Shown here: one piece after another, positions 1,827-16,549 of the stretch
How positions within the stretch are numbered: position 1 is the first letter of the stretch
How the letters are laid out: the number at the start of each line of letters is the position of its first letter
Source: a virus
Length of the DNA: 38,413 bases
Strand: one strand, 5' to 3'
Virus record (IMG/VR): IMGVR_UViG_3300042391_001489
Coordinates: 1 to 38,413 of that record
Notes under the pieces: model-generated
Seen by the model: only the letters and a program-made list of their open reading frames with translations
Told to the model about the DNA's origin: nothing
Database searches by the model: none
Position numbers and translations under genes: made by a program

Positions 1827-1840
1827 CGATGCTGGTAGTA

Positions 1841-1933: not shown

Positions 1934-1939
1934 GCAGAG

Positions 1940-1969
1940 TGGAAATCTGAAGCACCAACCCTGTACCAT
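1940..1969 (+). promoter_or_regulatory. repeated phage promoter, copy 3
   Basis: TGGAAA at 1940-1945, an 18-nt spacer beginning TCTGAAGCACC, TACCAT at 1964-1969. The leader carries ACACCACCTACTACAAATGGAG ahead of the gene starting at 1999. Confidence 0.8.
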
Positions 1970-1998
1970 TACACCACCTACTACAAATGGAGAAAGTC

Positions 1999-2642: not shown

Positions 2643-2658
2643 ACAGATAGCGAGCGAG

Positions 2659-2690
2659 GGGGTAATACCCCAAGCTTGTTACATAGCCCC
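2659..2690 (+). terminator. small hairpin GGGGT-AAT-ACCCC and half repeat
   Basis: GGGGT at 2659-2663 pairs with ACCCC at 2667-2671 around AAT. A lone AGCCCCG half of the intergenic hairpin family lies at 2684-2690 without a nearby partner. Weak terminator candidate between the unit from promoter 3 and promoter 4. Confidence 0.3.
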
Positions 2691-2700
2691 GCCCTAGAAT

Positions 2701-2730
2701 TGGAAATCTGAAGCACCCTGTCGCTAGAGT
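2701..2730 (+). promoter_or_regulatory. repeated phage promoter, copy 4 (leaderless type)
   Basis: TGGAAA at 2701-2706, an 18-nt spacer beginning TCTGAAGCACC, TAGAGT at 2725-2730. The ATG of the next gene is at 2738, where transcription should start, so the message is probably leaderless. The other members of the family have 20-40 nt leaders. Confidence 0.8.
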
Positions 2731-2737
2731 GGTACTT

Positions 2738-2983
2738 ATGGAAACAGACAAAATGACAGTGCAAGAGTGGCAAGACAGGTACATGCAACCGTTCTACAAT
2801 CTCGCCAACAACCCGACCGCAGTTCCTACATCCGAAATGGAAGACGGATACGCAGGTTTTGTGCTTGACGGTATTCTCGCCGTGAAAGACATTGACGGGC
2901 AAGAGGCAAACGATTGGGAGTGCGTAGAATTGGTTGAGGAACTAATCCGTTACGCAATTATTATGCAGGGGAGAGTGGACTGA
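2738..2983 (+). CDS. hypothetical protein, 81 aa, probable leaderless start
   Basis: The ATG at 2738 begins 8 nt after the -10 box of promoter copy 4, leaving no room for a ribosome site. Leaderless translation is common in Actinobacteria. An alternative ATG at 2753 has no ribosome site either. The protein is acidic and mixed helical (TVQEWQDRYMQPFYNLANNP, WECVELVEELIRYAIIMQ). Function unknown. The stop overlaps the next start as TGATG. Confidence 0.7.
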   Translation: METDKMTVQEWQDRYMQPFYNLANNPTAVPTSEMEDGYAGFVLDGILAVKDIDGQEANDWECVELVEELIRYAIIMQGRVD

Positions 2984-3252
2984 TGAGTAGCAAAACTTTT
3001 GAGGAATTCATAGGTGGAACTACGGATTGGTTTGAGTGTCTATGTGGCAACCAACCAAACTATGACGGCTTCTACTCTTGTCTAAGAACTGGAGAGATTG
3101 TCTCACCAACTATCTATGGAGATTGGGAAGGTGATGTTTATCTCTGTGAGCGTTGCAGTCGCATTATTGACGGCGAAACGCTAAAGGTTGTCGGAGTTTG
3201 CTCCGAAGAAATCGCATACAAAAACAACAACTACGACTGGAGTACCTACTAA
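2983..3252 (+). CDS. zinc-ribbon-like protein, 89 aa
   Basis: Starts at the overlapping TGATG and ends with TAATG into the next gene, so it is the middle of a coupled trio. Two cysteine pairs are visible, CLC at about residues 19-21 and CERC at about 52-55, a spacing compatible with a zinc ribbon, plus extra cysteines near 31 and 71. The start also carries FEEFIGGTTDWFE. A metal-binding structural role is inferred from the cysteines only; the family is not recognised. Confidence 0.75.
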   Translation: MSSKTFEEFIGGTTDWFECLCGNQPNYDGFYSCLRTGEIVSPTIYGDWEGDVYLCERCSRIIDGETLKVVGVCSEEIAYKNNNYDWSTY

Positions 3253-3473
3253 TGAACTTGATGAACACCTACCGAGTAACAGTAATGGTCACGCTTGATG
3301 TAAAAGGCGTTGATGATGGAGCGGCAGCGGGGCTTGCGATAACGCAAGTGCAAGATGCAATCGGTGACAGCGGTCAGCATGGTCGAAAAATGTGGGTTAC
3401 GGGTATTGGTCGTCACTCAAATCCAATCTCCGATGAAGAGGAACTGATGATTTACGAGCAATCGGAAATCTGA
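3252..3473 (+). CDS. hypothetical protein, 73 aa; stop codon inside promoter copy 5
   Basis: The ATG overlaps the previous TAA. The frame extends upstream to 3198, but that would overlap the previous gene by 55 nt. A strand (TYRVTVMVTLDVKGV) and helix (AAAGLAITQVQDAIG) are followed by MWVTGIGRHSNPIS, which looks like a half-domain with beta-alpha-beta folding. The last codons, TCG GAA ATC TGA, are part of the -35 box and spacer of promoter copy 5. Function unknown. Confidence 0.75.
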   Translation: MNLMNTYRVTVMVTLDVKGVDDGAAAGLAITQVQDAIGDSGQHGRKMWVTGIGRHSNPISDEEELMIYEQSEI

Positions 3474-3492
3474 TGCACCCATCCTGTAAGTT
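3463..3492 (+). promoter_or_regulatory. repeated phage promoter, copy 5
   Basis: CGGAAA at 3463-3468, an 18-nt spacer beginning TCTGATGCACC (one change from the consensus), TAAGTT at 3487-3492. The spacer supplies the stop codon of the upstream gene. The leader CAACTACCAACGAAAGG precedes the gene at 3523. Confidence 0.75.
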
Positions 3493-3522
3493 CTTATCAA
3501 CTACCAACGAAAGGCAATAACT

Positions 3523-4005
3523 ATGGGTTACACGCATTACACATACCGACCAGTCAAGAACGCAGGCTCTGCCTACTTCTTTGGCAAATTAGCGCTAGAC
3601 GCTAAGAAACTGTGCGACTACGCCAATGCCAATGGTATTCGTATTCGTAACGGTCTAGGCGAAGGCGAACCTGAGTTCACTGAGTTCAGTTTCTCCATAA
3701 ACGGCGATGCTTCTCACTATGTTGAGGGCAGAGACCTTGCGCATGAAACCTTTTACTGGGCAGGTATTCCGACACATCCCAAACACCGTGAAGGTGAAAG
3801 TCATTACTTCAACTTTTGCAAGACGGCTATGAAGCCTTATGACGCTGTAGTGACGGCGATACTCATTCGGGCTAAATCTATCTATGGCTCGTGTGTCTCT
3901 ATCTCGTCTGACGGCGACTGGCAAGAATGGCAGGCAGGGCGTGAAATGTACGAAACCGTATTCGGCGAAGTAGCAGAATGTCCATTTGAGGGGGCGAGCG
4001 TATGA
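3523..4005 (+). CDS. hypothetical phage protein (MGYTHY type), 160 aa
   Basis: GAAAGGCAATAACT precedes the ATG. The MGYTHYTYRP start recalls a family of small phage and bacterial proteins beginning MGYTHYW, for which I know no established function. Later blocks are IRNGLGEGEPEF, FSFSINGDASHYVEG, HETFYWAG, the Cys-containing FNFCKTAMKPYDAVVTAILIRAK helix region (given here in outline) and SSDGDWQEW. The several His and aromatic residues could form a metal or ligand site, but that is speculation. Overlaps the next gene by 4 nt. Confidence 0.85.
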   Translation: MGYTHYTYRPVKNAGSAYFFGKLALDAKKLCDYANANGIRIRNGLGEGEPEFTEFSFSINGDASHYVEGRDLAHETFYWAGIPTHPKHREGESHYFNFCKTAMKPYDAVVTAILIRAKSIYGSCVSISSDGDWQEWQAGREMYETVFGEVAECPFEGASV

Positions 4006-4286
4006 ACCACGAAAACTACACAGACAAGCCTTTGACATATGACGAACTGGCGATGATGATTGGTTACAGAATGATGACTGTTATTGCCCTTATGAGAAAT
4101 CTCGGACTTACAACTCTCCCTCATTTTGTGAAGTCCTACTTTGACCCAAGCCAAACAGATGACCATGTACTGCGTGATTTTGAGCGCTGGATGAAATGGT
4201 CCATAGCGCCAAAAAATGCCGAGGAACGAGAACACCTATACCCGACTGATTTTGTAGAGATATGTCAGAAAGTTCTGAAAGAGTAA
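4002..4286 (+). CDS. hypothetical protein, 94 aa
   Basis: The start overlaps the preceding stop as ATGA. The N-terminal half, PLTYDELAMMIGYRMMT, looks like a helix-turn-helix start (TYDELAMMIG), and the C-terminal half is helical with a WMKWSIAP core. A DNA-binding role is possible but unproven. It ends 4 nt before the palindrome CCCCGGGG that closes the unit. Confidence 0.7.
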   Translation: MNHENYTDKPLTYDELAMMIGYRMMTVIALMRNLGLTTLPHFVKSYFDPSQTDDHVLRDFERWMKWSIAPKNAEEREHLYPTDFVEICQKVLKE

Positions 4287-4307
4287 CCCCGGGGCTCAAG
4301 GATAAAT

Positions 4308-4337
4308 TGGAAATTTGAAGCACCAGCGTTGTATAGT
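4308..4337 (+). promoter_or_regulatory. repeated phage promoter, copy 6
   Basis: TGGAAA at 4308-4313, an 18-nt spacer beginning TTTGAAGCACC, TATAGT at 4332-4337. The leader ACCACCTACTACTAAGGAG precedes the ATG at 4367. Confidence 0.85.
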
Positions 4338-4366
4338 TCTACCACCTACTACTAAGGAGAAATGAA

Positions 4367-4885
4367 ATGGGAATGGATGTAATCGGAGTAAATCCGCAAA
4401 ACGACAGAGGAAGTTACTTCCGCAACAATGTATGGTGGTGGCGACCACTCGCAGACTTCATCTGCAACAACTATGGAGAAATTGCTAGCGGTTGCGAAGA
4501 CTGGCATTCAAACAGCGGTGATGGTCTTGACGCTAAATCGTCTAAGTCCTTAGCGCTTTCGCTCAAGGCAGACATTGCCAATGGCACGGTTGAAAAGTAC
4601 TCAAAGACTTACAACGAATGGCTCTCTTCCATCCCCCGTGAGGCTTGCAATCACTGCGAATGCACTGGTATCCGCAATGACAAGGTCGGAGAAGAGATGG
4701 GCATGCCGACTAGAGAACTAAAACCCGAGGTGCAGATTCTCACAGGGCGTACACACGGCTGGTGCAATGGCTGTGATGGCGTGGGCACTAAAGAGTCGTG
4801 GCTGTCCGTTTATCCATTTGATGTTGACAATGTCAAAGAGTTCGCAGACTTCCTAGAGAACTGCGGTGGATTCCAAATCTGCTGA
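4367..4885 (+). CDS. phage protein with two CxxC zinc motifs (MGMDV type), 172 aa
   Basis: AAGGAG lies 9 nt before the ATG. The N-terminus MGMDVIGVNP with GSYFRNNVWWWRPL matches, from memory, a widespread small phage family starting MGMDVYGxNP. The central part carries CNHC (94-97) and CNGC (133-136) in a DnaJ-like CxxCxG(x)G arrangement, so a single zinc is likely bound. The C-terminus is acidic and helical and ends in GFQIC. No enzymatic motif is seen. First gene of the unit driven by promoter copy 6. Confidence 0.85.
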   Translation: MGMDVIGVNPQNDRGSYFRNNVWWWRPLADFICNNYGEIASGCEDWHSNSGDGLDAKSSKSLALSLKADIANGTVEKYSKTYNEWLSSIPREACNHCECTGIRNDKVGEEMGMPTRELKPEVQILTGRTHGWCNGCDGVGTKESWLSVYPFDVDNVKEFADFLENCGGFQIC

Positions 4886-4889
4886 TAGA

Positions 4890-4895
4890 TATAAT
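4890..4895 (+). promoter_or_regulatory. possible internal -10 box TATAAT
   Basis: A perfect TATAAT lies between two genes, followed by the leader motif CACCTACTACAAAGGAG. Upstream is CCAAATCTGCTGA, a degraded echo of the repeated promoter, but the 18-nt geometry does not fit. It may be a weak or decayed promoter. Confidence 0.35.
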
Positions 4896-4921
4896 CACAG
4901 CACCTACTACAAAGGAGAAAT

Positions 4922-5245
4922 ATGCTTTATTCAACACTTCCACCCACACTCAAATTATTCGCAACAGAGCCTGCGGTTGATGACATTGCGAATCATTACG
5001 ACTTCAAGCTTATTAGCGAGATGGAGACATCGAGAGGCGTCACATGGATAGCGCAAATTTTAAGAAAAGGAGTTATCGTATGCCGAGTTGAAAACCACGG
5101 AAATGGTGGAGCGAACCACTACTTCAGAGGTGATGACTTAGGTGTTTATCAACTATTCCTAGATGATGCTACGAGGGCGTATCCTGATGCGAGCGAACCG
5201 CTTGACTCATTCGTTCAACTCATAGATATAGTGAGTACACGATGA
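4922..5245 (+). CDS. hypothetical protein, 107 aa
   Basis: CACCTACTACAAAGGAGAAAT leads directly to the ATG, the standard leader here. It has a helical N-terminus, then a beta-rich segment (TWIAQILRKGVIVCRVENHG) followed by GNGGANHYFRG, DLGVYQLFLDDATRAYP and a helical tail. It looks like a compact alpha/beta protein. No known motif. The stop overlaps the next start as ATGA. Confidence 0.8.
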   Translation: MLYSTLPPTLKLFATEPAVDDIANHYDFKLISEMETSRGVTWIAQILRKGVIVCRVENHGNGGANHYFRGDDLGVYQLFLDDATRAYPDASEPLDSFVQLIDIVSTR

Positions 5246-5559
5246 TAAACAAAATCAGAATCACATCCAAATTGCTAAAGGATTACCTTGTTGATGTAGT
5301 CATCGGAGACAAAATCCTGGTCGGTTTGGATGCACGGGTTCAGTGGCATGCTGATGATTACAAAGAATTGAATCACTACTATCTATCGTTTAGCAAAGAC
5401 CCTGTTGACATGCAATGGGATGACTTCGGCGCGCTAGATGATGATGTCTTCTACTATCTTGAAGGCCTAAAAGAAGCTATCTCTTTCACATGGAAAGAAC
5501 ACTGCGACGGTTGGCAGATTGTTGCTGCGGATTTGGTTACCAGCGATATTGCCGAGTAA
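5242..5559 (+). CDS. hypothetical acidic protein, 105 aa
   Basis: Coupled to the previous gene by a 4-nt overlap. The N-terminus is beta-like (NKIRITSKLLKDYLVDVVIG); the rest is acidic with many aromatics (YYLSFSKDPVDMQWDDFG, DDDVFYYLEG). Last gene before a clear hairpin. Function unknown. Confidence 0.75.
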   Translation: MINKIRITSKLLKDYLVDVVIGDKILVGLDARVQWHADDYKELNHYYLSFSKDPVDMQWDDFGALDDDVFYYLEGLKEAISFTWKEHCDGWQIVAADLVTSDIAE

Positions 5560-5569
5560 TCAAACCTAG

Positions 5570-5608
5570 AGCCCCGGCGGCTCGACGGCCCACAGGTGCA
5601 CCGGGGCT
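5570..5608 (+). terminator. AGCCCCGG/CCGGGGCT hairpin
   Basis: AGCCCCGG at 5570-5577 pairs perfectly with CCGGGGCT at 5601-5608 around a 23-nt loop, 10 nt after the stop at 5559. It is the best-formed member of the family. There is no T-run. The rest of the gap to 5774 holds the CGGTGGTGGA repeat and promoter copy 7. Confidence 0.5.
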
Positions 5609-5695
5609 ACACGAACAGGTGTTCGCTTTTAGTGGCTCAAAACCATCTGACCTGCGCATCAAAAAACCGTAGGTCAAGTATCGAACTTTCTTACA

Positions 5696-5708
5696 TGACG
5701 GTGGTGGA
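5696..5708 (+). repeat. CGGTGGTGGA repeat
   Basis: TGACGGTGGTGGA, ending 4 nt before the -35 box of promoter copy 7. Confidence 0.6.
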
Positions 5709-5712
5709 TGAG

Positions 5713-5742
5713 TTGAAATCTGAAGCACCTAGTCGCTATAGT
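5713..5742 (+). promoter_or_regulatory. repeated phage promoter, copy 7
   Basis: TTGAAA at 5713-5718, an 18-nt spacer beginning TCTGAAGCACC, TATAGT at 5737-5742. It is the copy closest to the sigma-70-type consensus and shows that the TKGAAA stretch is the -35 box. Leader CACCTACTACTAACAAGGGAG. Confidence 0.85.
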
Positions 5743-5774
5743 GGTATCACCTACTACTAACAAGGGAGAAAGAA

Positions 5775-6476
5775 ATGCCTAACTGGTGCCAGCAATACGG
5801 AGAAGTCCGTGGAAGCAACAAGGAACTAAAGCGCTTCATTGAGGCGATTCGCGTTGAGCAAACCGAAGAATGGAAAGCACTTCCTGAATGGAACAGAAAC
5901 AACTGGGATATGAATCAACTCTTCCCTATCCCAACAGAACTTCACGAAACAGTGGCTGGATTCTTGGGTAAGGATGAGGACGGAAATCCCAAGCCCGAAC
6001 AGATTGCCCTAGAGGAACAGCAAAAGCGAAACATCGACAAGTACGGTCACAAAGACTGGTACGACTGGGCGAACGAAAACTGGGACACCAAGTGGGGTGC
6101 GTGCAATGTTGATTTCGATGAAAACAGATTTGAGGAAAAAAGCACTTCCATAGACATTCATTGGGAAAGCGCGTGGAGCCCTGCTGTCGGTCTTATCAGG
6201 AACATATCTGCAAAGTTCCCTGAACTCGTATTCGGAATGCACTTCACAGAGGAAGCCAACTTCTTTGCAGGGTACATGGTCTTCCATAACGGCGAGATGG
6301 TTGCTGAAGGTGACCATGACATGGAGGGACAGCCTGAATGCGAAGACAACGGCAACGACGAGCAATATGAGAAATACGAAAAGGAAATGAGCGACTGGCA
6401 AGACAAACTCATATTTGAGATTGCAGAGGGCATGATGACAGCCATGACGGCACAACAGATTTTCAGTGCAAACTGA
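5775..6476 (+). CDS. YubB/DUF1281-like (ferredoxin-like Api92 family) protein, 233 aa
   Basis: The start MPNWCQQYGEVRGS, the DMNQLFPIPTEL block and the NWDTKWGACNVDF block, followed by HWESAWSP and FPELVFGMHFTEEANFFAG, fit the MPNWC family (DUF1281/YubB, Api92-like, ferredoxin-like fold) found on plasmids and phages. The biochemical role of the family is not established to my knowledge. The C-terminal third is very acidic (EGDHDMEGQPECEDNG onward), ending in a helix. AAGGGAG precedes the ATG. It is the first gene of the unit driven by promoter copy 7 and is followed by an HTH gene. Confidence 0.8.
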   Translation: MPNWCQQYGEVRGSNKELKRFIEAIRVEQTEEWKALPEWNRNNWDMNQLFPIPTELHETVAGFLGKDEDGNPKPEQIALEEQQKRNIDKYGHKDWYDWANENWDTKWGACNVDFDENRFEEKSTSIDIHWESAWSPAVGLIRNISAKFPELVFGMHFTEEANFFAGYMVFHNGEMVAEGDHDMEGQPECEDNGNDEQYEKYEKEMSDWQDKLIFEIAEGMMTAMTAQQIFSAN

Positions 6477-6509
6477 AATAAATAAACCAAACAACAACAA
6501 GGAGAAAAC

Positions 6510-6728
6510 ATGAATACCGAAAAGAAAGAAGCACGCGTGAGCGCGCGACTTCGGAAACTCCGTATTGAGCGAGAAATGTCGCAAGATACGCTGGCACTGA
6601 AGGCGGGGCTCGAGCGCAAGACCATTAACCGGATTGAGAACGGGCATTATTCACCAAGCCTTCAATCACTAATCCTGCTTTGCAGTGCCCTGAAGGTTAA
6701 GCCATCAGAAGTATTGGAAGGTATCTAA
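6510..6728 (+). CDS. Cro/CI-type helix-turn-helix regulator, 72 aa
   Basis: A classic HTH_3 fold: RLRKLRIEREMSQDTLALKAGLERKTINRIENGHYSPSLQ in outline, with the recognition region around residues 20-45 and the typical NGHYSPSL loop. AAGGAG precedes the ATG at 6510. The length and single domain match small phage and plasmid regulators. It is the only clear repressor-type protein in the early region, so it is a candidate reader of the repeated promoter motif, but this is inference. TAATG couples it to the next gene. Confidence 0.9.
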   Translation: MNTEKKEARVSARLRKLRIEREMSQDTLALKAGLERKTINRIENGHYSPSLQSLILLCSALKVKPSEVLEGI

Positions 6729-6973
6729 TGACCACCTCACTACAACTTGAAATGGCAAAAAACTTCATAAACGAACTCAAGGAAAACTACGGTGACTTTG
6801 AGGAACTTGACGCAATGGCTATTCTTGACACTCTTGGAGTGTGCGGTCTATCCTTTGCTATCAGCGAAGACGCTTCACATGCCTTCTTGGCTGAACTTGG
6901 GGCAACTCCCTATTCACTTTCAGAACTAACCGAACTTGGAGTAACCCTTACTCCGATAAATTCGGAAATCTGA
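6728..6973 (+). CDS. hypothetical acidic protein, 81 aa; stop inside promoter copy 8
   Basis: Overlaps the HTH gene by one base. The protein is acidic with several helices (AKNFINELKENYGDFEELD, ASHAFLAELGATPY, LSELTELGV). As a co-translated acidic partner of an HTH protein it could be an antitoxin-like or anti-repressor protein, but no motif supports this. It ends S-E-I-stop on TCG GAA ATC TGA, which is the beginning of promoter copy 8, exactly as in the gene ending at 3473. Confidence 0.75.
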   Translation: MTTSLQLEMAKNFINELKENYGDFEELDAMAILDTLGVCGLSFAISEDASHAFLAELGATPYSLSELTELGVTLTPINSEI

Positions 6974-6992
6974 AGCACCCATCCACTATCAT
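6963..6992 (+). promoter_or_regulatory. repeated phage promoter, copy 8
   Basis: CGGAAA at 6963-6968, an 18-nt spacer beginning TCTGAAGCACC, TATCAT at 6987-6992; overlaps the 3' end of the upstream gene. Leader CACCTACTACTAAGGAG. Confidence 0.8.
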
Positions 6993-7021
6993 TGTCCTCA
7001 CCTACTACTAAGGAGAAAATC

Positions 7022-7426
7022 ATGAACAAAACACTTGTCGGAGAACGAATCAAACTGGTTCAAACCAGCGACCCGTATACACGGGTTCGCAAGGGGGACC
7101 TAGGCACAATCACCCGTGACCCATATGAAAATGGTGGCGTCACATGTATTGGTGTTGATTGGGATAACGGCAGTTCAATCTCCCTCGTGGAAGGTGAGGA
7201 CTCATGGAAGACCGTCGGAGTGGCGGAGGAGTACATTACGGCGTTTGAGGAATACTTGAGTGCTGGGTACAAACTGCTCGGAATTTGGCAGAAACTTGAC
7301 AACAAGAACATCCTGTTCTCAAACATCGTCAACAGCAAGGAATTCCCATTTGCAATGTCGTTTGATGAGTACTTGGCTGAAATGGTAAACATCAAGTTCG
7401 CCCTAGATGAGTGTGGAGACAAATGA
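7022..7426 (+). CDS. DUF4314-domain protein, 134 aa
   Basis: The frame is open from 6992, but AAGGAG precedes the ATG at 7022. Residues about 5-63 (GERIKLVQTSDPYTRVRKGD, then LGTITRDP, VDWDNGSSISLVEGEDSW) match the DUF4314 pattern: a small SH3-like beta barrel with DPYT, G-D-x-GT and WDNGS blocks. The C-terminal half is helical and not recognised. DUF4314 occurs in phages and mobile elements and has no established function. First gene of a four-gene coupled unit. Confidence 0.8.
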   Translation: MNKTLVGERIKLVQTSDPYTRVRKGDLGTITRDPYENGGVTCIGVDWDNGSSISLVEGEDSWKTVGVAEEYITAFEEYLSAGYKLLGIWQKLDNKNILFSNIVNSKEFPFAMSFDEYLAEMVNIKFALDECGDK

Positions 7427-7656
7427 TAGAGAAGCGAACAGATGGTGTTGAGAGCATGTCCTACGATGCGAATATAGATGGCTTAAAAGAAGTCATCATA
7501 TTCACAAGCAAGTACGATGACACGAGCCCGAGAATCATCCGCATTGCCTTAACTGGACAGGGAATGGTTATGTACTTCTTCACGAATGCAGAACTGGAAT
7601 CGTCTACTACACTCACTTACGACGAGTGGTTTGAATTCTCACAAAGGAACCTTTAA
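7423..7656 (+). CDS. hypothetical protein, 77 aa
   Basis: The ATG at 7423 overlaps the previous stop as ATGA; an upstream ATG at 7411 lies in the same frame. Beta-rich (LKEVIIFTSKYDD, IIRIALTGQGMVMYFF), with an acidic C-terminus. Directly abuts the next gene. Function unknown. Confidence 0.7.
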   Translation: MIEKRTDGVESMSYDANIDGLKEVIIFTSKYDDTSPRIIRIALTGQGMVMYFFTNAELESSTTLTYDEWFEFSQRNL

Positions 7657-8067
7657 ATGGCTAAGAAAAAGAAAATCACAGGACAAATTGCTAAGCGATT
7701 CACCCTTGAAGAGATTGAGATGATTGTTGAGGCGCTCTGCTTGTACAGGGATGCGAATCATAGGGTTGTCTGCGGGTTGTTTGACAAGAACGGACGAATG
7801 TATTCAGAGGCTCGCCGAGAGTCCATGGAGTCTCATGACTTTATGGAACTTTTGGGTAGCGGAGAAGCAACGCTCCGTCATGTCCCCAAGGGACCTAGAT
7901 TCACCAGCGAAGAAGAAGACACGATTGAAGAATTGTGGGATGTCTTCGTCACTGGCATTGGCAAGATTGAAGAAAAAATCGAAGAAGAAATAACCGAAAC
8001 GGTTGAGGAAAATATTGGCGGTGTTATAGATGGTCTCTATAACATGTTGAAGGGCGAAGCAAAATGA
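7657..8067 (+). CDS. hypothetical protein with glutamate-rich coiled coil, 136 aa
   Basis: Starts directly after the previous TAA, with AAAGGA 7-12 nt upstream. The N-terminus MAKKKKITGQ is basic, followed by a helical ERFTLEEIEMIVEAL-like segment. The middle (KNGRMYSEARRES) is basic, and residues about 103-125 are a Glu-rich amphipathic helix (KIEEKIEEEITETVEEN) typical of a coiled coil. Oligomerisation is likely and function unknown. ATGA overlap with the next gene. Confidence 0.75.
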   Translation: MAKKKKITGQIAKRFTLEEIEMIVEALCLYRDANHRVVCGLFDKNGRMYSEARRESMESHDFMELLGSGEATLRHVPKGPRFTSEEEDTIEELWDVFVTGIGKIEEKIEEEITETVEENIGGVIDGLYNMLKGEAK

Positions 8068-8342
8068 TTGACATGGATGTGCTTGCGCAGATAGCGGAGA
8101 TTCTTGAGGAAAACTACTACACCCTGCTGTCCACTGGAGACGAAGTCATAGAGACCGCCAAGAGCGACCTAGAGAGTGGCTATTGGAACAATGACCCGGA
8201 CAACACCTACACCGATGACGAAATCTCTGCGGCAATCGAGTACTTAAGAATTAAGTTTCATATCGAAGGCAAGTTGAAAACCTCTGCCCGGCATTACTAC
8301 ACCCACGCTTGGGAAAAATCTTTCGAAAAAACAAAAGGGTAA
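8064..8342 (+). CDS. hypothetical protein, 92 aa
   Basis: Coupled to the previous gene. Acidic N-terminal helices (VLAQIAEILEENYYTLLS), a DNDPDNTYTDDE loop rich in Asp/Asn, and a basic C-terminal helix. I see no known motif. Last gene of the unit from promoter copy 8; the structured terminator at 8344 starts 2 nt after its stop. Confidence 0.75.
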   Translation: MIDMDVLAQIAEILEENYYTLLSTGDEVIETAKSDLESGYWNNDPDNTYTDDEISAAIEYLRIKFHIEGKLKTSARHYYTHAWEKSFEKTKG

Positions 8343-8343
8343 G

Positions 8344-8417
8344 ACCGGGGCTCGGGCCGGATAGTGGGTAGTAGCACTGTTCGGCCGAAGGGCCAGCTCA
8401 CCCGGTTGCGTTTTTTT
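8344..8417 (+). terminator. branched, GC-rich intrinsic terminator
   Basis: The outer stem ACCGGGGCT (8344-8352), with GGCC (about 8356-8359), pairs with GGCC-AGC near 8391-8397 and CCCGGT (8401-8406). Inside are a hairpin AGTG-GGTAGTAG-CACT and the palindrome TTCGGCCGAA. GCGTTTTTTT follows directly. It is the clearest intrinsic terminator of the region and unusually elaborate; it may also be the 3' end of a stable RNA. Confidence 0.7.
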
Positions 8418-8434
8418 AAAAAAATCAAAAAAAT
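8418..8434 (+). repeat. A-tract repeat AAAAAAATCAAAAAA, copy 1
   Basis: AAAAAAATCAAAAAAATT follows the T-run of the terminator. Near-identical copies lie at 9333 and 14474. Confidence 0.5.
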
Positions 8435-8458
8435 TGAATAGTCAGTGACTACGTATCA

Positions 8459-8472
8459 CGACGGTGGTGGAA
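8459..8472 (+). repeat. CGGTGGTGGA repeat
   Basis: CGACGGTGGTGGAA, ending 11 nt before the -35 box of promoter copy 9. Confidence 0.6.
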
Positions 8473-8483
8473 GAGTATTGTTT

Positions 8484-8513
8484 TAGAAATCTGAAGCACC
8501 CACCCTGTAGTGT
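8484..8513 (+). promoter_or_regulatory. repeated phage promoter, copy 9
   Basis: TAGAAA at 8484-8489, an 18-nt spacer beginning TCTGAAGCACC, TAGTGT at 8508-8513. A short leader with GAAAGGAAGG precedes the GTG at 8538. Confidence 0.8.
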
Positions 8514-8537
8514 GGTACATGAAAGGAAGGTACACCC

Positions 8538-9044
8538 GTGCTAAAGAAGTCAATAACAGAAACTACTATCAAGGACATTCACCGCAAGATGTGGGACAAG
8601 GCTATTGAGGAGCATGGAGACAAGTTCTCCGTGCCTAGTCAGGTCTCGCAAAACATTAGTGACCACATGAGGGCTCTATGGGTTCTTGGGGTTTGGAATC
8701 GTGATGGCGCGAAAGGCAGTCCAGTTCGCACGATGCTCTCCTACTCTCTCCCTGAATCAGTTATCGCAGATGTATCAAGCGAATACTGCGGTATAGATGT
8801 TGATGAGGAGTCTGTGGCAGGCGAAGTCAAGACCGAGAAGCGTGCCGACAAGTGGGACGCCTTCCTGAAGTGGGCTAACCAGCATCACTTTGAGCAGTAC
8901 ACCACAGAACAACTCGTGGAGCAGTGTGGCTTCTCCTATCCGACCACTCTGAAATATATTCAGGAGTCCCCGACCTTCAGAAAGATTAAGAAGGGTCTAT
9001 GGGAAGTCCGAGATGCGAAGTCTGATAGGCAGTCAGGTATCTAG
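8538..9044 (+). CDS. hypothetical protein, 168 aa, possible DNA-binding C-terminus
   Basis: GTG start with GAAAGGAAGG about 7 nt upstream. The N-terminus (TIKDIHRKMWDKAIEEHG) is helical. Residues about 110-165 (KWANQHHFEQYTTEQLVEQC, then GFSYPTTLKYIQESPTFRKI and GLWEVRD) have the spacing of a winged helix: helix, turn, recognition helix SYPTTLKYI, and a wing ending in KKGLWEV. A DNA-binding role is therefore plausible but not proven. The stop overlaps the next GTG as TAGTG. Confidence 0.8.
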   Translation: MLKKSITETTIKDIHRKMWDKAIEEHGDKFSVPSQVSQNISDHMRALWVLGVWNRDGAKGSPVRTMLSYSLPESVIADVSSEYCGIDVDEESVAGEVKTEKRADKWDAFLKWANQHHFEQYTTEQLVEQCGFSYPTTLKYIQESPTFRKIKKGLWEVRDAKSDRQSGI

Positions 9045-9226
9045 TGGGTCTCCTAGGTGGTTACATTGTCTACAAGGTAGGCAAGAACCGTGGAGAAAAG
9101 AAAGAGGCGCGTCGTTCTGCCAAAGCCGACAGTGCAAATAACTGCATAATTTGTGAGTCGCGCCGCGCTGACTGCGGCGAACACGGCGAAGTCGTATTCT
9201 GCTCTGTCTGTTGCGGTTGCAACTAG
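9044..9226 (+). CDS. small cysteine-rich protein with hydrophobic N-terminus, 60 aa
   Basis: GTG start overlapping the previous TAG. Residues 1-13 (MGLLGGYIVYKVG) are hydrophobic, followed by a very basic stretch (KNRGEKKEARRSAKA) and a cluster of seven cysteines and one histidine (CIICESRRADCGEHG, FCSVCCGC). A zinc-binding protein, possibly membrane-associated, is a reasonable reading. It resembles short phage zinc-ribbon proteins, but no family is recognised. Confidence 0.65.
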   Translation: MGLLGGYIVYKVGKNRGEKKEARRSAKADSANNCIICESRRADCGEHGEVVFCSVCCGCN

Positions 9227-9272
9227 CCCGGTCAACTTGCCGGCCTCTCAACCCTGAAGCCCCGGCCCTAGA

Positions 9273-9290
9273 TGTTAGGCCTACCTAACA
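9273..9290. promoter_or_regulatory. palindromic site TGTTAGG-CCTA-CCTAACA
   Basis: A perfect 7-bp inverted repeat with a 4-nt centre, upstream of the tandem promoters of the MoxR/VWA operon and without a T-run. It could be an operator or a hairpin in the 3' untranslated region of the preceding gene. AGCCCCGG half-sites lie on both sides (about 9258 and 9303). Confidence 0.4.
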
Positions 9291-9332
9291 ATCCAAAGTG
9301 ATAGCCCCGGGGAAACTCTGTTACACCCCTGC

Positions 9333-9349
9333 AAAAAAATCAAAAAATT
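9333..9349 (+). repeat. A-tract repeat AAAAAAATCAAAAAATT, copy 2
   Basis: The 17-mer is identical to the copy at 14474 and nearly so to 8418. It lies between a gene end and the tandem promoters. Confidence 0.5.
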
Positions 9350-9382
9350 GCTCTCTATGTGTATTGCTGTGTCAAGGGATTT

Positions 9383-9412
9383 TGGAAATCTGATGCACCC
9401 ATGATGTAGAGT
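9383..9412 (+). promoter_or_regulatory. repeated phage promoter, copy 10
   Basis: TGGAAA at 9383-9388, an 18-nt spacer beginning TCTGATGCACC, TAGAGT at 9407-9412. First of two tandem copies ahead of the MoxR/VWA operon; no gene lies between them. Confidence 0.75.
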
Positions 9413-9441
9413 CAGTAGTGCCGTAGGGCGTCAAGTGTTTT

Positions 9442-9471
9442 TGGAAATCTGAAGCACCTATGCCCTATGGT
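9442..9471 (+). promoter_or_regulatory. repeated phage promoter, copy 11
   Basis: TGGAAA at 9442-9447, an 18-nt spacer beginning TCTGAAGCACC, TATGGT at 9466-9471. It lies 59 bp after copy 10. The leader CACCAACAACTAAACACC and the ribosome site AAGGAGGG precede the ATG at 9510. Confidence 0.8.
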
Positions 9472-9509
9472 TACACCAACAACTAAACACCCTTAAGGAG
9501 GGAAAAGAA

Positions 9510-10235
9510 ATGGCTACTACTACACAAACGAAATTGCCACAATGCTGGCAAGATTTAGAGGACGCACTCAACAATGGTGTTGACCGTGTGATTCTTTTTG
9601 GACCTTCGGGTATCGGAAAGACTTACGCTGGTATGACCATTGGTGATGTTGAAGCAGGTGCATTCCGTTTGGTCTGCACAGAGGACATGACCAATATGGA
9701 TGTCACAGGAACATTCCTTCCTGATGGCAAGGGTGGCACTAAGTGGCTTGACGGCTCGGCTCTAAAGGCTTGGGAAGGCAACGGCATTAAAGGTGGGCGT
9801 CTCATCGTGGATGAAATCGACAAGGCTTCGGGCGATGTTTATGCAACGCTCTTGGCGATGTTGGACTCACCTGAATCGGCTTCCTTTGAACACCCTGACA
9901 CGGCTCGTGTCCACCGTCCAAAAGCAGGCTTCTCTGCAATTATGACCACCAATGTTGAGAATATGGGCGAGTTGCCAACGGCTCTCACTGACCGATTCCC
10001 AATCAAGATTCGTATCAACCAACCTCACCCTGACGCTCTCTTGCGCTTGTCACCTGAATTGCGCCAGTTCGCAGTTCGTATGGCTGACGCTGGCGAACGC
10101 CGTATCTCACTGCGAGCATTCATCGCCTACGACCAACTCCGCAAGGGTCTTGGTGACGAGCGAGCAAGCCAGTTGACATTCGGTGACAGGGCGCAGTCAA
10201 TCCTTGACGCCATCGCAATTGAAAAGTTGGCGTAA
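9510..10235 (+). CDS. MoxR-like AAA+ ATPase, 241 aa
   Basis: Walker A GPSGIGKT is at 31-38, Walker B RLIVDEID has D101/E102, a sensor-1 MTTN lies near 149 and an arginine-finger TDRFP near 162. The arrangement fits the MoxR/CbbQ (AAA_5) branch, usually a hexameric chaperone that remodels a partner carrying a VWA domain. The length is a single AAA+ module without added domains. The next gene, overlapping by TAATG, encodes exactly such a VWA partner. AAGGAGGG upstream is among the best ribosome sites in the window, and two tandem promoters precede it, so high expression is likely. Substrate unknown. Confidence 0.92.
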   Translation: MATTTQTKLPQCWQDLEDALNNGVDRVILFGPSGIGKTYAGMTIGDVEAGAFRLVCTEDMTNMDVTGTFLPDGKGGTKWLDGSALKAWEGNGIKGGRLIVDEIDKASGDVYATLLAMLDSPESASFEHPDTARVHRPKAGFSAIMTTNVENMGELPTALTDRFPIKIRINQPHPDALLRLSPELRQFAVRMADAGERRISLRAFIAYDQLRKGLGDERASQLTFGDRAQSILDAIAIEKLA

Positions 10236-11743
10236 TGAAAACTTTAAAAAAGCGTATCTCTGCTGAACCCGAGTTCCTTTCACGGAAAGATGTGGAAGGG
10301 GGCGTATGGAAGGTAGACGAGGTTCGTGCAATTCGTGGCGAACCTTGCACCAACATTGTCACAAGGGAAATGAAAGTTCCGACTGACGATGACCCACTGG
10401 CTCGTGCAATTCGTGCGCACGAAATGGTTCACGCAAAAGTATCGCCTGCCAACGATTGGGCGAAATGGGTTGACCGAAAAATTGCAACTCACCAGTCAAT
10501 GATTGTTGTTGAGGAATTGCGTGTTAATTATCTCTGTCAAAAGTCGGGCTTTGATGTAAAGAGCGACCTTGCCGATGGTGGAGAAATGGCTGACGGAGAA
10601 CGACTTGGAGCGACAGAGGATTGGGCTGGCGCAGTGCAGATGGCTGTTGCCACTGCTGGCACTGCTTCTAGCAAGTTGTTCCTGAACGGAATTCGCAGAC
10701 ACAAACGAGATTGGGGTCCGATACTTCTCGATATCTCTAAGCGAGCAGTAAAGGAAATGAAAAAATCTGACAAGTACGGCAACCTTGCCTCAACTGCGAT
10801 TGACGAGCGTAGCGGTCTATTCCCGATTGGATTTATTCACACGGAGAGACTGGCTGAATGGATTGACCGTCTTTGCGACAAGTCACCCGAGCAAATAGCA
10901 GAGGAGAAAGAAAAGGCTCGCAGAGAGCGTGAGGAAGCAAAACTCCGCAAGGCTCTTGACAAGGGAGAAGGTGAATCCAGTGAAGGTAATGGAGTGCATT
11001 CCAATAAAGGAATCAAGCCAACCGACACAGGCAAAGATGACGGCAACCCATACAAGGGCATTACGACATCCACTGCGACACACCGAGTTGCAAACTGGCA
11101 AAAACTGAACATTGAGTTTATGCCAATGCCAGTATTGTCAAAAGGCAACTTAGGCAAAAGGCGTGTTGCTTCCAATATGGGAATGCGTCCACGCAGAATG
11201 CACCGAATGATTACTGACCCACAGATGAGAATCTTTGACAAGGTCATTCGTGGTACTGGTGGAGTTGTAATAATTGACGGAAGTGGTTCAATGTCTTTCA
11301 GCAGAGAACAACTTACAAAAATTATCGAGAATGCTCCAGGTGCAACTGTTGCCGTGTACTCCGACAAGGGTGACCCAAGTATGACGAACCTTTGGGTAGT
11401 TTCTCACAAGGGCAAAATGGTCAATGAGTTACCAAGTGTTGGAATGGGCAACGGAGTTGACTTCCCTGCGATTGAGTGGGGAGTGAAGCAAAAGCAAACT
11501 TCACGCTCGCCAATTATTTGGGTAACTGACGGTGGAGTGTGCGGTGCTAATGGTACTTATGAATCAGTACTTGCTATGCAGTGCATTAACTTCTGCAAGA
11601 AAAACAACATTGTCGTTGTTCCTTATGTTGACGAAGCAGTTGACCAACTGAAAAAGTTGAAAAGCGGTGACAAGGCAGTGAGTATTTATCCTGAAATGTT
11701 TAAAAAGACATACAGGGAATTAAACGGAACTGAACTAATCTAA
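10235..11743 (+). CDS. HExxH metallopeptidase-like protein with C-terminal VWA domain, 502 aa
   Basis: HEMVH at 62-66 is a zincin-type zinc site, preceded by DDDPLARAIRA and followed by EELRVNYLCQ, which may give a third ligand. A basic, glutamate-rich linker lies at about 220-260 (REREEAKLRKALDKGEG). Residues about 338-495 form a VWA-like domain with the MIDAS motif DGSGSMS at 348-354 and a later IIWVTDGG strand. This combination is known for VWA-like/metallopeptidase proteins encoded next to MoxR ATPases. The pair probably forms a chaperone machine acting on a protein in the infected cell. Whether the zinc site is catalytic cannot be told from sequence. Confidence 0.9.
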   Translation: MKTLKKRISAEPEFLSRKDVEGGVWKVDEVRAIRGEPCTNIVTREMKVPTDDDPLARAIRAHEMVHAKVSPANDWAKWVDRKIATHQSMIVVEELRVNYLCQKSGFDVKSDLADGGEMADGERLGATEDWAGAVQMAVATAGTASSKLFLNGIRRHKRDWGPILLDISKRAVKEMKKSDKYGNLASTAIDERSGLFPIGFIHTERLAEWIDRLCDKSPEQIAEEKEKARREREEAKLRKALDKGEGESSEGNGVHSNKGIKPTDTGKDDGNPYKGITTSTATHRVANWQKLNIEFMPMPVLSKGNLGKRRVASNMGMRPRRMHRMITDPQMRIFDKVIRGTGGVVIIDGSGSMSFSREQLTKIIENAPGATVAVYSDKGDPSMTNLWVVSHKGKMVNELPSVGMGNGVDFPAIEWGVKQKQTSRSPIIWVTDGGVCGANGTYESVLAMQCINFCKKNNIVVVPYVDEAVDQLKKLKSGDKAVSIYPEMFKKTYRELNGTELI

Positions 11744-12093: not shown

Positions 12094-12395
12094 ATAAATT
12101 TACGCTTATTGAAAACAAAGCGATAGACAAGCCAGTTGAATATGTAATTCTGAACATCACCGAGCAGTCAGACGATACCGGGGACCAGTACTTCAGTAGG
12201 GATACTGGAGCGTGGAACCAACTAGGACTTGCTACACGCTTCACAGAGGAGGAGAGGATTAAGTTCTCCCTGCCTGCTGGGGGCATCTGGGTGAACATGA
12301 CCGAGATGATGCATGCTATGGAGATGTCTAAAGCAAATCACCCGACCACTGGGTTCAGACAGCCTCGTTTAACTATCGTTGACGAGAGCGAATAG
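12090..12395 (+). CDS. hypothetical protein, 101 aa
   Basis: Coupled to the previous gene by a 4-nt overlap. An N-terminal strand pair (FTLIENKAIDKPVEYVILNI) is followed by a Gly/Asp-rich loop (SDDTGDQYFSRDTGAW) and an amphipathic helix (NMTEMMHAMEMSKAN). No recognised motif. Its 3' end overlaps the 3' end of the convergent minus-strand gene by 23 bp. Confidence 0.75.
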   Translation: MNKFTLIENKAIDKPVEYVILNITEQSDDTGDQYFSRDTGAWNQLGLATRFTEEERIKFSLPAGGIWVNMTEMMHAMEMSKANHPTTGFRQPRLTIVDESE

Positions 12396-12675
12396 CCCTG
12401 TCCCAAATTCGCAACGACTGCACGAGGAATACCGCAGCCAATAAATTGCGAAAAGAAATTTGCCAGTCGAAAGCCCGGGACTCTCTAGCTATAACAAGTA
12501 GGCCGTTAATGATTACCGAATACACAACGATGGTTGCTGCGTGCCCAATCAAACCAACCATCAGCGCTGCAATCAGGTTGGGTTTCAGTTCGTCATCTTC
12601 GCCCGTCACTTCGTCGTACAGGTCGTACCCACGGCGTTCTTTATACGACGGTGGTGGAAAGGAATGTTTTTTCAT
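12373..12675 (-). CDS. small two-helix membrane protein, 100 aa
   Basis: A proline-rich cytosolic N-terminus (HSFPPPSYKERRGYD) and an acidic stretch (EVTGEDDELKP) are followed by two hydrophobic segments, about residues 32-61 (LIAALMVGLIGHAATIVVYS onwards) and 74-92 (SFRNLLAAVFLVQSLRIW). GTAGGA lies upstream of the ATG. Codons 4-9 contain the CGGTGGTGGA repeat on the opposite strand. It follows the HA-domain regulator on the same strand at a distance of 253 bp. A role in superinfection exclusion or immunity is possible, but this is inference. Confidence 0.65.
   Translation of the reverse strand: MKKHSFPPPSYKERRGYDLYDEVTGEDDELKPNLIAALMVGLIGHAATIVVYSVIINGLLVIARESRAFDWQISFRNLLAAVFLVQSLRIWDRAIRSRQR
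12646..12660 (+). repeat. CGGTGGTGGA repeat
   Basis: CGACGGTGGTGGAAA, read on the + strand, inside the start region of the minus-strand membrane protein gene. Confidence 0.6.
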
Positions 12676-12928: not shown

Positions 12929-13300
12929 TTAAATCGAAATATTTTTAACAATCTGATGAACCCGCTGCCGGCTCAAATCAAATTTATCTGCAATTTGGCG
13001 GAGCGAAGAACCCGCGGCGCGCATCTCCAAAATTTGAGAATTTCTGCCTTTATCTGTCGCCGGACCAGGCTTCAGTGGACCCCATTGCCAGCCGGCAACA
13101 GCCTGGATAGCCGCTGCGCGCTCTTCAGAAAGTTGATTTTTTCTGCGTCTCTGGCGCACGTACCCAACCCAAGCTCCCAGTGTGACATCAGAATTGTCAA
13201 CAATTTCAGTATGAATTGCCGGCACATCACAATGTTCCTCGCGTTGCGCAAACTGAGAAAGAGCTTTAATATAGGTATTGAATCTTGTTGTGTTGTCCAT
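12929..13300 (-). CDS. Helicase-Associated domain protein with sigma-region-4-like HTH, 123 aa
   Basis: Residues about 8-75 fit the Helicase-Associated (HA) domain pattern: YIKALSQFAQREEHCDVP, then LGAWVGYVRQRRRKNQLS, ERAAAIQAV and a final GWQWGP. Residues about 88-120 (ILEMRAAGSSLRQIADKFD, LSRQRVHQIVKN) are a helix-turn-helix close to sigma-70 region 4 or FliA-type HTH. HA domains are abundant in Actinobacteria. The combination suggests a DNA-binding regulator. It is transcribed away from a divergent control region with two TTGACA copies. The + strand frame covering it (12446-13429) is a shadow. Confidence 0.8.
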   Translation of the reverse strand: MDNTTRFNTYIKALSQFAQREEHCDVPAIHTEIVDNSDVTLGAWVGYVRQRRRKNQLSEERAAAIQAVAGWQWGPLKPGPATDKGRNSQILEMRAAGSSLRQIADKFDLSRQRVHQIVKNISI

Positions 13301-13425: not shown

Positions 13426-13851
13426 ATGAACCCATTTGACGACTTTGAAAAGTCTGTTCCTTTTGATAGAAAGCACGAGTTGATTGCAGCGCTTCAGCAA
13501 TCCGGCATAGACGACTCAGTATCTGCAGCAATGTTGGATGGTCTTGAAGAGACGGATGAGTCAGTGCACAACGTTATGTTCATCTCAACAGATGGTCATT
13601 ATGCGATTAAAGCCATTCACGTGCCGGCGTCAGCACTCGATGGAGAAGACGGACCTGTGCTCTTCCCTACTGCTAACTCCAAAACAATAATCGCAGCTTT
13701 CTCCAAGGAGCACATACAGAACAAAATGCGATTAATCGAAGAACTGGACCCGGGGCTCCGCGAAGATGCCTGGGTGGAGTTCCTGGAGTTGCTAACCGAA
13801 AAAGTTACGCTAGAATGCGAGTCAAACCCACCCCTATGGAAGGACCTATAA
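13426..13851 (+). CDS. hypothetical acidic protein, 141 aa
   Basis: CACAGGAGGCACGC gives a near-perfect ribosome site. The N-terminus is acidic and helical (MNPFDDFEKSVPFDRKHELI, LQQSGIDDSVSAAMLDGLEE), the middle beta-like (VHNVMFISTDGHYAIKAIHV), and the C-terminus helical (NKMRLIEELDPGLREDAWVE). No motif is recognised. First gene from the TTGACA promoter; TAATG coupling to the next. Confidence 0.8.
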   Translation: MNPFDDFEKSVPFDRKHELIAALQQSGIDDSVSAAMLDGLEETDESVHNVMFISTDGHYAIKAIHVPASALDGEDGPVLFPTANSKTIIAAFSKEHIQNKMRLIEELDPGLREDAWVEFLELLTEKVTLECESNPPLWKDL

Positions 13852-14471
13852 TGCAGCAAACAAAGTTCGATGTCCCAATTAATTCGACGGTGGTGGAAAC
13901 GATGACAGATGGTCAGCTAGACCTGGTAAAAATGACCGACTGGGTATACGGCAAGAAGCCTCCCACTACCTGGGACGACGCAGCACGCCGCGCAGTTTTT
14001 CAAATTTTTAATCATTCTTTCAGCACGTGGGACCGACTGTCCGACGTCAGGGAATACCTTGATTACCTGATTGAGGAGATTGGTCCTGAATCAAAAAAGG
14101 AAATTTCTGGAGCTGTGGCAGCGGAGTACTGGGCAATCCTTGGGCGGACGGCCGCCGTTGTTGCTGAAAAAAAGGAAATTTTTAAAGAAATTGATGAAGA
14201 GCTCGCCGGCCACGTAGACCGAATTGCTGAAATTTTAGTTAGAAAGCAGCGCGACTACGGGCACCATAACATTGCGCGCTTTGGCAGGGCTGGGTTATTG
14301 GTCAGGATGCATGACAAAGTCGCACGTCTTGAGAACCTCCTTGAATTCCTGAAGTCACCCGAGAACGAATCGGTGGTGGATAACTTCATCGATGTGATTG
14401 GTTACGCGTCAATTGGCATCATGTGGGAAAGAAACTGGTTTTTACTTCCCCTGGCGACGGCCGCTGAGTAA
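13851..14471 (+). CDS. DUF1599/Nmad1-like (all-alpha, MazG-like) protein, 206 aa
   Basis: The ATG at 13851 overlaps the previous TAA; the frame is open from 13815, but that would overlap coding sequence. The C-terminal half carries ILVRKQRDYGHHNIARFGRA, GLLVRMHDKVARLENLL and VVDNFIDVIGYASIGIMW. This is the pattern of DUF1599/Nucleotide-modification-associated domain 1, an all-alpha fold related to MazG NTP-pyrophosphohydrolases. In phages such proteins are linked to nucleotide metabolism or base modification. The N-terminal half is helical and unassigned. The gene contains two copies of the CGGTGGTGGA repeat (13885, 14369). Confidence 0.75.
   Translation: MQQTKFDVPINSTVVETMTDGQLDLVKMTDWVYGKKPPTTWDDAARRAVFQIFNHSFSTWDRLSDVREYLDYLIEEIGPESKKEISGAVAAEYWAILGRTAAVVAEKKEIFKEIDEELAGHVDRIAEILVRKQRDYGHHNIARFGRAGLLVRMHDKVARLENLLEFLKSPENESVVDNFIDVIGYASIGIMWERNWFLLPLATAAE
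13885..13899 (+). repeat. CGGTGGTGGA repeat
   Basis: CGACGGTGGTGGAAA inside the first codons of the DUF1599-like gene. Confidence 0.6.
14369..14383 (+). repeat. CGGTGGTGGA repeat
   Basis: ATCGGTGGTGGATAA near the 3' end of the DUF1599-like gene, encoding S-V-V-D. Confidence 0.5.
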
Positions 14472-15659: not shown

Positions 15660-16076
15660 ATGTCTTCAGATATATCGGTGGTGGAAAGGCTTTTTGAAAT
15701 GACCGAATCAGCTAGTAAGAGGGGACCACAGAAACGCCCCCGTGCCGCAACAGTGAGTAAGAACAAGAAGTCCTTACTTGTAGACCAGAACCAGATTAAA
15801 GAAGTATTCGACTTCTGGGTCCTGACATTCAGTAAGAAGCGCGTAGCACTAGACGAGAAGCGCAGACAAGCCATAGGAGCCGCAATACACGACTATGGAC
15901 TAGAAGCCTGCAAGGACGCAATCACCGGCTGTTCCCTATCAGACTTCCACATGGGGCGTAACAAGAACAACCGTGTGTATAACGAGATAGAACTCATCTT
16001 GCGCGACTCAGAACACATCGAGCGCTTTCTTGCCCTAGTATCTGATGACACCACCTCACAGGGAGAACCATTCTGA
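15660..16076 (+). CDS. phage replication-organiser C-terminal-domain protein, 138 aa
   Basis: AAAGGGGAG precedes the ATG. After a basic tail-like N-terminus, residues about 42-125 carry VFDFWVLTFSKKRVALDEKR, then IGAAIHDYGLEACKDAITGC, SLSDFHMGRNKN and YNEIELILRDSEHIERFL. This is a domain common at the C-terminus of phage replisome organisers and O-like initiators, thought to recruit the helicase or its loader. The usual N-terminal winged helix is absent; an inverted-repeat-rich stretch lies just upstream. The CGGTGGTGGA repeat falls in codons 6-10. The stop overlaps the next gene's likely start region. Confidence 0.75.
   Translation: MSSDISVVERLFEMTESASKRGPQKRPRAATVSKNKKSLLVDQNQIKEVFDFWVLTFSKKRVALDEKRRQAIGAAIHDYGLEACKDAITGCSLSDFHMGRNKNNRVYNEIELILRDSEHIERFLALVSDDTTSQGEPF
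15674..15687 (+). repeat. CGGTGGTGGA repeat, last copy
   Basis: ATCGGTGGTGGAAA inside the first codons of the replication-organiser-like gene, encoding S-V-V-E. No further copy is seen downstream. Confidence 0.55.
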
Positions 16077-16135
16077 TATCCAAAGACCAGACGGTAGAGA
16101 TAGTCAAGCAAGCGTATGCCACCTACAACCAGCAG

Positions 16136-16549
16136 TTGCTGAAGGTAGATGAGAAGGCAACCTTTAACGCCTGGTACGAGTTACTGTCGGACCTAGAGTA
16201 CGACGAAGTGAAGTCGGCCTTCCTCCAGCTAGCGACACACGCTAAGTTCATGCCCAGACCTGGGGACGTACGACGTACCGCAATAGATGCCCGTATAAAA
16301 ATACCCCCATTTTTAGATGCATATTCTGCTTGGGGTATTATCCAACAGGTAATAAGAGAGGTACATTCTGGTGCCCAAACAGAAAGACCCCCTTTCGATG
16401 AGGCGTTAAAAAATACGCTCATTAAATTAGGGGAAGTCGTATACGACATGCACACCAATGGCGATAGAGAAGTATTCGTACGCACCTATGAGCAGGTAGT
16501 CCAGAAGTTAGAGCAAGACAAGTACGCAATACACAAGGAGGGTTTGTAA
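16136..16549 (+). CDS. probable helicase-loader-like replication protein, at least 137 aa
   Basis: Coordinates give the first conventional start, TTG 16136, but the frame is open without a stop back through the previous gene's end, and the reading VEIVKQAYATYNQQLLKVDE is continuous with the domain. GGGAGA (16061-16066) would serve an ATT at 16070, CTG at 16073 or ATA at 16076, the last overlapping the upstream TGA as TGATA. The helical pattern AWYELLSDLEYDEVKSAFLQ followed by ATHAKFMPRPGDVRR recalls the N-terminal domain of phage helicase loaders or replisome organisers, which load DnaB at the origin. No ATPase motif is present. TAATG coupling to the next gene. Confidence 0.65.
   Translation: MLKVDEKATFNAWYELLSDLEYDEVKSAFLQLATHAKFMPRPGDVRRTAIDARIKIPPFLDAYSAWGIIQQVIREVHSGAQTERPPFDEALKNTLIKLGEVVYDMHTNGDREVFVRTYEQVVQKLEQDKYAIHKEGL

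Follow-up and report, generated by a model that had tools for sequence, protein, structure and literature searches.

A conserved phage gene pair encoding a MoxR-class AAA+ ATPase and a HExxH/VWA partner of an unclassified family

The window, which here means the whole 38,413-base virus record analyzed, comes from a freshwater phage with related contigs of up to 150-172 kb. Two of its plus-strand genes, one for an AAA+ ATPase and one for a larger protein combining an HExxH motif with a VWA domain, overlap in a TAATG stop/start sequence and form a real, conserved AAA+/partner pair of a known kind, whose partner belongs to a distinct and unclassified family. A preliminary description of this DNA had reported the overlap and the partner's HEMVH motif and had named residues H62 and E102; all were found where claimed, E102 being in the Walker B of the ATPase with D101, and the motifs are conserved. 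The coding features of the pair are the following:

9510..10235, +, MoxR/CbbQ-NorQ-type AAA+ ATPase, 241 aa (Pfam, AF2 and PDB matches)
9600..9623, +, Walker A GPSGIGKT, residues 31-38 (G31, P32, G34, G36, K37 and T38 invariant)
9798..9821, +, Walker B RLIVDEID (D101 and E102 invariant)
10233..10237, +, TAATG stop/start overlap of the AAA and VWA genes
10235..11743, +, HExxH/VWA partner protein, 502 aa (motifs, AF2 model, fold comparison)
10418..10432, +, HEMVH, residues 62-66, zincin-type motif on helix 54-69 of the AF2 model (H62, E63 and H66 invariant)
10511..10528, +, EELRVN, residues 93-98, with E93/E94 as candidate third zinc ligand (alignment, profile comparison)
10961..11095, +, variable disordered linker, approximately residues 243-287 (lowest pLDDT at 244-271; variable in alignment)
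11096..11248, +, conserved basic stretch ahead of the first VWA strand, residues 288-338 (low pLDDT at 305-336)
11276..11290, +, MIDAS DGSGS, residues 348-352 (conserved)
11447..11461, +, GNGVD, residues 405-409, loop in which the canonical MIDAS Thr is replaced (alignment)
11525..11533, +, TDG of the VWA domain (Asp, D432, conserved)

Judged from its predicted structure, the first protein is a compact MoxR-class AAA+ ATPase of the CbbQ/NorQ branch. It matched Pfam AAA_5 (1.2e-12), and its AF2 model (pLDDT 89.6), with a helix-2-insert hairpin at residues 67-81, had NorQ (9qh8, 5e-14) and CbbQ (6l1q) as best PDB matches, which bears out the parallel drawn earlier to MoxR-VWA chaperone machines. 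All features of the MoxR class were present (Walker A and B, sensor 1, Arg finger/sensor 2 and helix-2 insert), and the sensor and Arg positions were invariant among aligned homologues, as were the Walker motifs. Because Pfam gave no match to the C-terminal CbbQ_C domain (PF08406) at E<=1, the protein was not filed as CbbQ/NorQ itself. It also matched the phage CobS family phrog_249 (1.9e-11), and its sequence relatives in GenBank phages were weak matches only.

The partner lies outside Pfam, which is a new point: no model in Pfam, NCBIfam or PADLOC covers it, and direct sequence search of GenBank phages found no relatives of it at 1e-5. Its strongest library match was phrog_33218, a group of unknown function (2.1e-44 over residues 278-478), and the best match in BFVD was A0A1B0XTW8 (1.8e-21), followed by several phage "cobalamin biosynthesis" proteins. 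The AF2 model (pLDDT 81.6) comprises an N-domain, a disordered linker, the conserved basic stretch and then a VWA fold, which structure comparison placed at residues 339-480 (Z up to 8.9); Foldseek against the PDB with the full model gave no match below 1e-3, and searching PDB sequences with the profile of the VWA protein gave only chance-level matches. In the N-domain, the EELRVN stretch sits on helix 86-103 of the model. Zn-peptidases typically show an HExxH motif with a conserved acidic residue after it; the domain appears zincin-like and Zn-peptidase-like, with zinc binding and peptidase activity predicted. HExxH, DxSxS and the VWA Asp were kept in all 87 full-length homologues (73/73 phage and 14/14 cellular), and only two of them, both phage rows, lack the acidic+R[VI]N signature. 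Lack of conservation of HEMVH and the MIDAS residues had been named as grounds for refuting the earlier reading; with HExxH, DxSxS and the Asp kept throughout, this check did not refute it. The MIDAS Thr is lost, however: the canonical DxSxS...T...D pattern is absent, the Thr position being Val in the alignment and Cys in one relative (GNGVD in the window; GNGCD or GNIVD in cellular relatives). We found no published biochemistry of this AAA-VWA family in the literature.

Among environmental viral loci, at least 152 held the VWA protein and 117 the AAA protein. A search for co-occurrence of the two, as had been suggested, found the AAA gene directly upstream of the VWA gene in 165/165 loci holding both regions (three further loci, cut by a contig end, were left out of this count) and adjacent to it in all 78 distinct loci. 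The coupling of a MoxR AAA+ ATPase to a HExxH/VWA protein is supported. Strong purifying selection acts on both genes, with dN/dS of about 0.1 or lower (dN 0.02 and dS 0.4 for the AAA gene; dN 0.06-0.07 and dS 0.55 for the VWA gene). A fixed neighborhood recurs up- and downstream of the pair across the 78 distinct loci:

8538..9044, +, conserved 168 aa gene upstream of the pair (67/78 loci)
12373..12675, -, conserved downstream gene, 100 aa, hydrophobic-looking, possible membrane protein (67/78 loci)
12929..13300, -, conserved HTH-type protein (74/78 loci)
13426..13851, +, conserved 141 aa protein (76/78 loci)
13815..14471, +, DUF1599-like protein (66/78 loci), Pfam match below the curated cut-off
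15660..16549, +, two genes conserved downstream, one replication-initiator-like and one weakly matching a helicase loader

Upstream of the pair, the plus strand of the first 9.5 kb (1-9.5 kb) carries 11 copies, against 0.14 expected, of a phage-specific promoter-like motif, TTGGAAATCTGAAGCACC-N7-TANNNT. The copies (window positions 92-9458) precede small, early-looking genes, and related lineages seem to have changed versions of the motif. Three features lie immediately ahead of the AAA gene:

9382..9412, +, promoter-like motif copy 1, TTGGAAATCTGATGCACC-N7-TAGAGT (motif count)
9441..9471, +, promoter-like motif copy 2, TTGGAAATCTGAAGCACC-N7-TATGGT, in tandem, 59 bp downstream of copy 1
9495..9501, +, Shine-Dalgarno AAGGAGG, spacing 8

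The pair had been singled out as the only genes behind two tandem repeated promoters, and the tandem proved real at the level of promoter-like motif copies: those at 9382 and 9441 are the sole tandem among the 11, and in close relatives, too, a tandem occupies this position, even with an altered motif core. Promoter activity, promoter strength and early timing are predictions from these motifs. The assertion that the pair has the strongest ribosome site applies to the AAA gene, whose Shine-Dalgarno was the longest match among 32 gene starts compared, and not to the VWA gene, which lacks a strong one of its own.

The idea of a phage MoxR ATPase working with a metallopeptidase-VWA protein is already known, as the same architecture occurs in N4 gp24/gp25 and in a published jumbo-phage pair. 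A 2021 survey described the latter as MoxR plus a vWA protein that carries a metallopeptidase domain at its N terminus, and proposed a role in virion assembly (PMC7824862). Salicola phage SCTP-2 was considered as source of the jumbo-phage examples and rejected, its proteins starting at ASV44016 and being too few to reach ASV44728; the neighbor genes GuuelaD 135 and HHTV2 gp8 were likewise rejected as HExxH partners, neither containing HExxH. Like the window pair, N4 gp24/gp25 (core genes of N4-like phages [PMC4193335, PMC7650795]) and the DUF2201_N-DUF2201 pairs, a type present in 567 phage records, join an AAA+ protein to one with an N-terminal HExxH and a C-terminal VWA. N4 gp25 matches PF13203 (3e-87) and PF09967 (1e-46); the window partner matches neither and was rejected as a DUF2201/COG3864 member by Pfam. 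The families also differ in the acidic third-ligand position, Glu in the window partner and Asp in DUF2201, and in the MIDAS loop Thr, kept in DUF2201 (GGT) but lost in the window family.

A likeness was also seen with T4-like cyanophages, in which the MoxR-like AAA_5 gene cobS (T4-GC150) adjoins a HExxH/VWA "peptidase" (T4-GC146; 463 phage records) that carries HExxH-x4-TP ... E[DE]xRI and a VWA DxSxSM. The window sequence HEMVHAKVSP ... VEELRVN agrees with the broader pattern HExxH-x4-[ST]P ... E[DE]xR[VI] plus a VWA beside an AAA, and the "peptidase" of Prochlorococcus phage P-HM2 reads HEVGHALYTP ... TEDIRI and DWSGSM. In profile comparisons by hhalign, which used small alignments, the window N-domain matched that of the cyanophage "peptidase" at 85% (score 43.6; highest of 40 column-shuffled controls, 16.1), that of the Gordonia/Brevibacterium phage "CobT-like" protein at 71% (39.5 against 20.7 for shuffles) and that of DUF2201 at 50% (35.5 against 16.4); between the VWA domains of the window family and DUF2201 the match was stronger, at 92%. 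True CobT, at 21.1 against 21.6 for shuffles, did not rise above controls. These comparisons suggest, short of proof, common descent of the N-domains of the window family and the compared phage families; that the partner's zincin-like domain appears related to the "peptidase" of the cyanophage cobS pair is new. The cyanophage pair differs from that of the window in often having other genes between its members, in its 700-780 aa proteins, in an AAA of about 25% identity, and in its annotation as cobalamin biosynthesis; in P-HM2 it lies among replication genes, and the gene order is reversed, with the peptidase first. The AAA/cobS gene followed the "peptidase" within two intervening genes in 5/5 phages examined. 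The "peptidase" and cobS of P-HM2 (L223, 1895-5274) themselves look like a MoxR/HExxH-VWA pair.

Cellular systems offer further parallels. NorQ/NorD and CbbQ/CbbO resemble the window pair in AAA fold, VWA MIDAS and a partner layout of N-domain, disordered linker and VWA; we found no HExxH domain described for NorD in the literature, unlike in the window partner, and the window AAA gave no CbbQ_C match. In NorQD structures, a VWA finger is in the AAA pore and the VWA domain twists against the N-terminal domain (PMC13036017); by analogy with the NorD finger (PMC9976466, PMC13036017), partner segment 288-338 is a candidate pore-inserting finger. With cobaltochelatase, the link lies in the phage CobS match of the AAA and in a VWA plus degenerate H...H...P...EQARVE stretch in CobT that recalls the window partner, although the partner has no Pfam match to CobT (PF06213), and the N-domain comparison fell within shuffled controls. 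RavA/ViaA likewise joins a MoxR AAA+ to a VWA partner (PMC10585395), yet RavA has extra domains (PMC4124505) and was not among the top structural matches listed for the window AAA.

Chromosomal relatives were found in 4/296 genomes of the phylum of G003 (G003 itself included), 4/148 genomes of one order (centre genome included) and 9/284 genomes of the phylum of G438 (seed genome included), and in the AAA tree the phage rows formed one group (83/93) near Actinomycetota rows. In three Actinomycetota genomes (G220, G240 and G432), the AAA-VWA genes run divergently from lexA, with nrdR and dinB next to them; a fourth, G251, has nrdR-dinB beside AAA-VWA without lexA. LexA-type boxes (GAACN4GTTC) occur in the lexA-AAA gap: G220 has two, and G240 and G432 have a single box apiece, close to the start of lexA. 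All four genomes carry two further boxes downstream of VWA. This lexA-nrdR-dinB setting with LexA boxes is new; its four genomes, from one order, perhaps reflect one insertion event. The chromosomal pair loci beside lexA (three genomes) or nrdR-dinB (four) are L189, L190, L200 and L191. No lexA/nrdR-type neighbors adjoined the pair in the Myxococcota relatives examined, five of which (L214, L215, L216, L218 and L221) have a conserved gene of ~250-330 aa just upstream, with 23-41% identity. Because LexA-type boxes preceded the phage AAA gene in 2/78 loci only, no SOS link is claimed for the phages.

Since the partner combines the NorD layout with a zincin-like N-domain, ATP-driven remodeling or cleavage is the simplest reading, and we put at about an even chance a NorQ/NorD-like ATP-driven remodeling machine with a zincin-like head, acting in replication or nucleotide metabolism. 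The AAA+ protein would form a hexameric ring, on which the VWA protein would dock via its VWA domain and pore-inserting segment; ATP turnover would then shift the VWA domain with respect to the HExxH domain at the N terminus, and the latter may hold or cut the target. The phage would use this machine in its early or middle phase, in DNA replication or nucleotide metabolism. Gene neighborhood is weak evidence for function, and it is what favors such a process over virion assembly: replication or nucleotide genes flank the pairs in the window, N4, Acinetobacter phage Presley, Cantare and P-HM2. That the pair is instead a virion-assembly chaperone, remodeling and cleaving structural proteins, seems unlikely. 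This role was the one proposed for jumbo-phage pairs of the same architecture (PMC7824862), a similar role is supported for p618/p892 of Acidianus two-tailed virus, where p618 interacts with p892 and virion proteins (PMC4124505), and in RPP1 the N4 gp24/25 homologues have some structural genes nearby (PMC4193335). However, the window pair lies near replication-initiator genes and ~12 kb from the tail/lysis genes, themselves encoded on the opposite strand; related pairs fall within replication/nucleotide clusters of unrelated phages, and cellular homologues occur without any virion.

We likewise consider it improbable that the pair loads metal into a viral or host enzyme such as ribonucleotide reductase (RNR) and that its HExxH domain binds the metal or the target instead of acting as a peptidase. 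In favor of this reading, iron is inserted by NorQ/NorD, the nearest relatives with solved structures (PMC13036017), a connection of phage cobS with cobalamin and ribonucleotide reductase has been described (PMC2984593), and the cellular pair adjoins nrdR. Neither RNR nor CobN is among the window genes identified without a specific search for either, and the lack of N-domain similarity to CobT above controls also argues against such insertion. So does the Zn-peptidase-type arrangement of HExxH and acidic residue. The earlier proposal had the complex cut a host protein, or strip a metal cofactor from it, in host takeover or anti-defense. The strong Shine-Dalgarno, the tandem promoter-like motifs and the promoter-rich, early-looking region in which the pair lies would fit such a protease. 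PADLOC gave no convincing match to known defense models, however, and very strong conservation in one fixed neighborhood is unlike fast-evolving anti-defense genes; with chromosomal homologues also existing, this proposal is very unlikely to be correct.

Beyond the window, the pairs described here (window, cyanophage cobS-"peptidase", actinophage "CobT-like" and N4 gp24/25) could, as a tentative and somewhat doubtful proposition, be branches of one replication-linked AAA+/zincin-VWA machine. If so, cyanophage cobS would be the motor of an ATP-dependent metalloprotease or remodeler rather than a vitamin-B12 auxiliary gene, and an SOS-linked bacterial version would sit beside lexA, nrdR and dinB. 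Given the link between the window N-domain and the cyanophage "peptidase", the common view that cyanophage cobS serves B12 synthesis becomes doubtful; phage cobS may be misannotated in this respect, which can be tested directly with phage N4 and with cyanophages in culture. Roughly a thousand sequenced phages (463 + 567 + 16 records) have related pairs, and we found no function reported for these pairs in the literature.

Two other minus-strand genes of the window were recorded. Positions 24215-28846 hold a 1543 aa open reading frame with fn3-like matches below cut-off, and the gene at 18497-19120 matches the HslV-family peptidase group phrog_1040 (2.9e-23). A 160 kb relative has, at a comparable position (L247, 6880-7503), an open reading frame of the same length and strand as the latter, judged by eye to be apparently the same gene.
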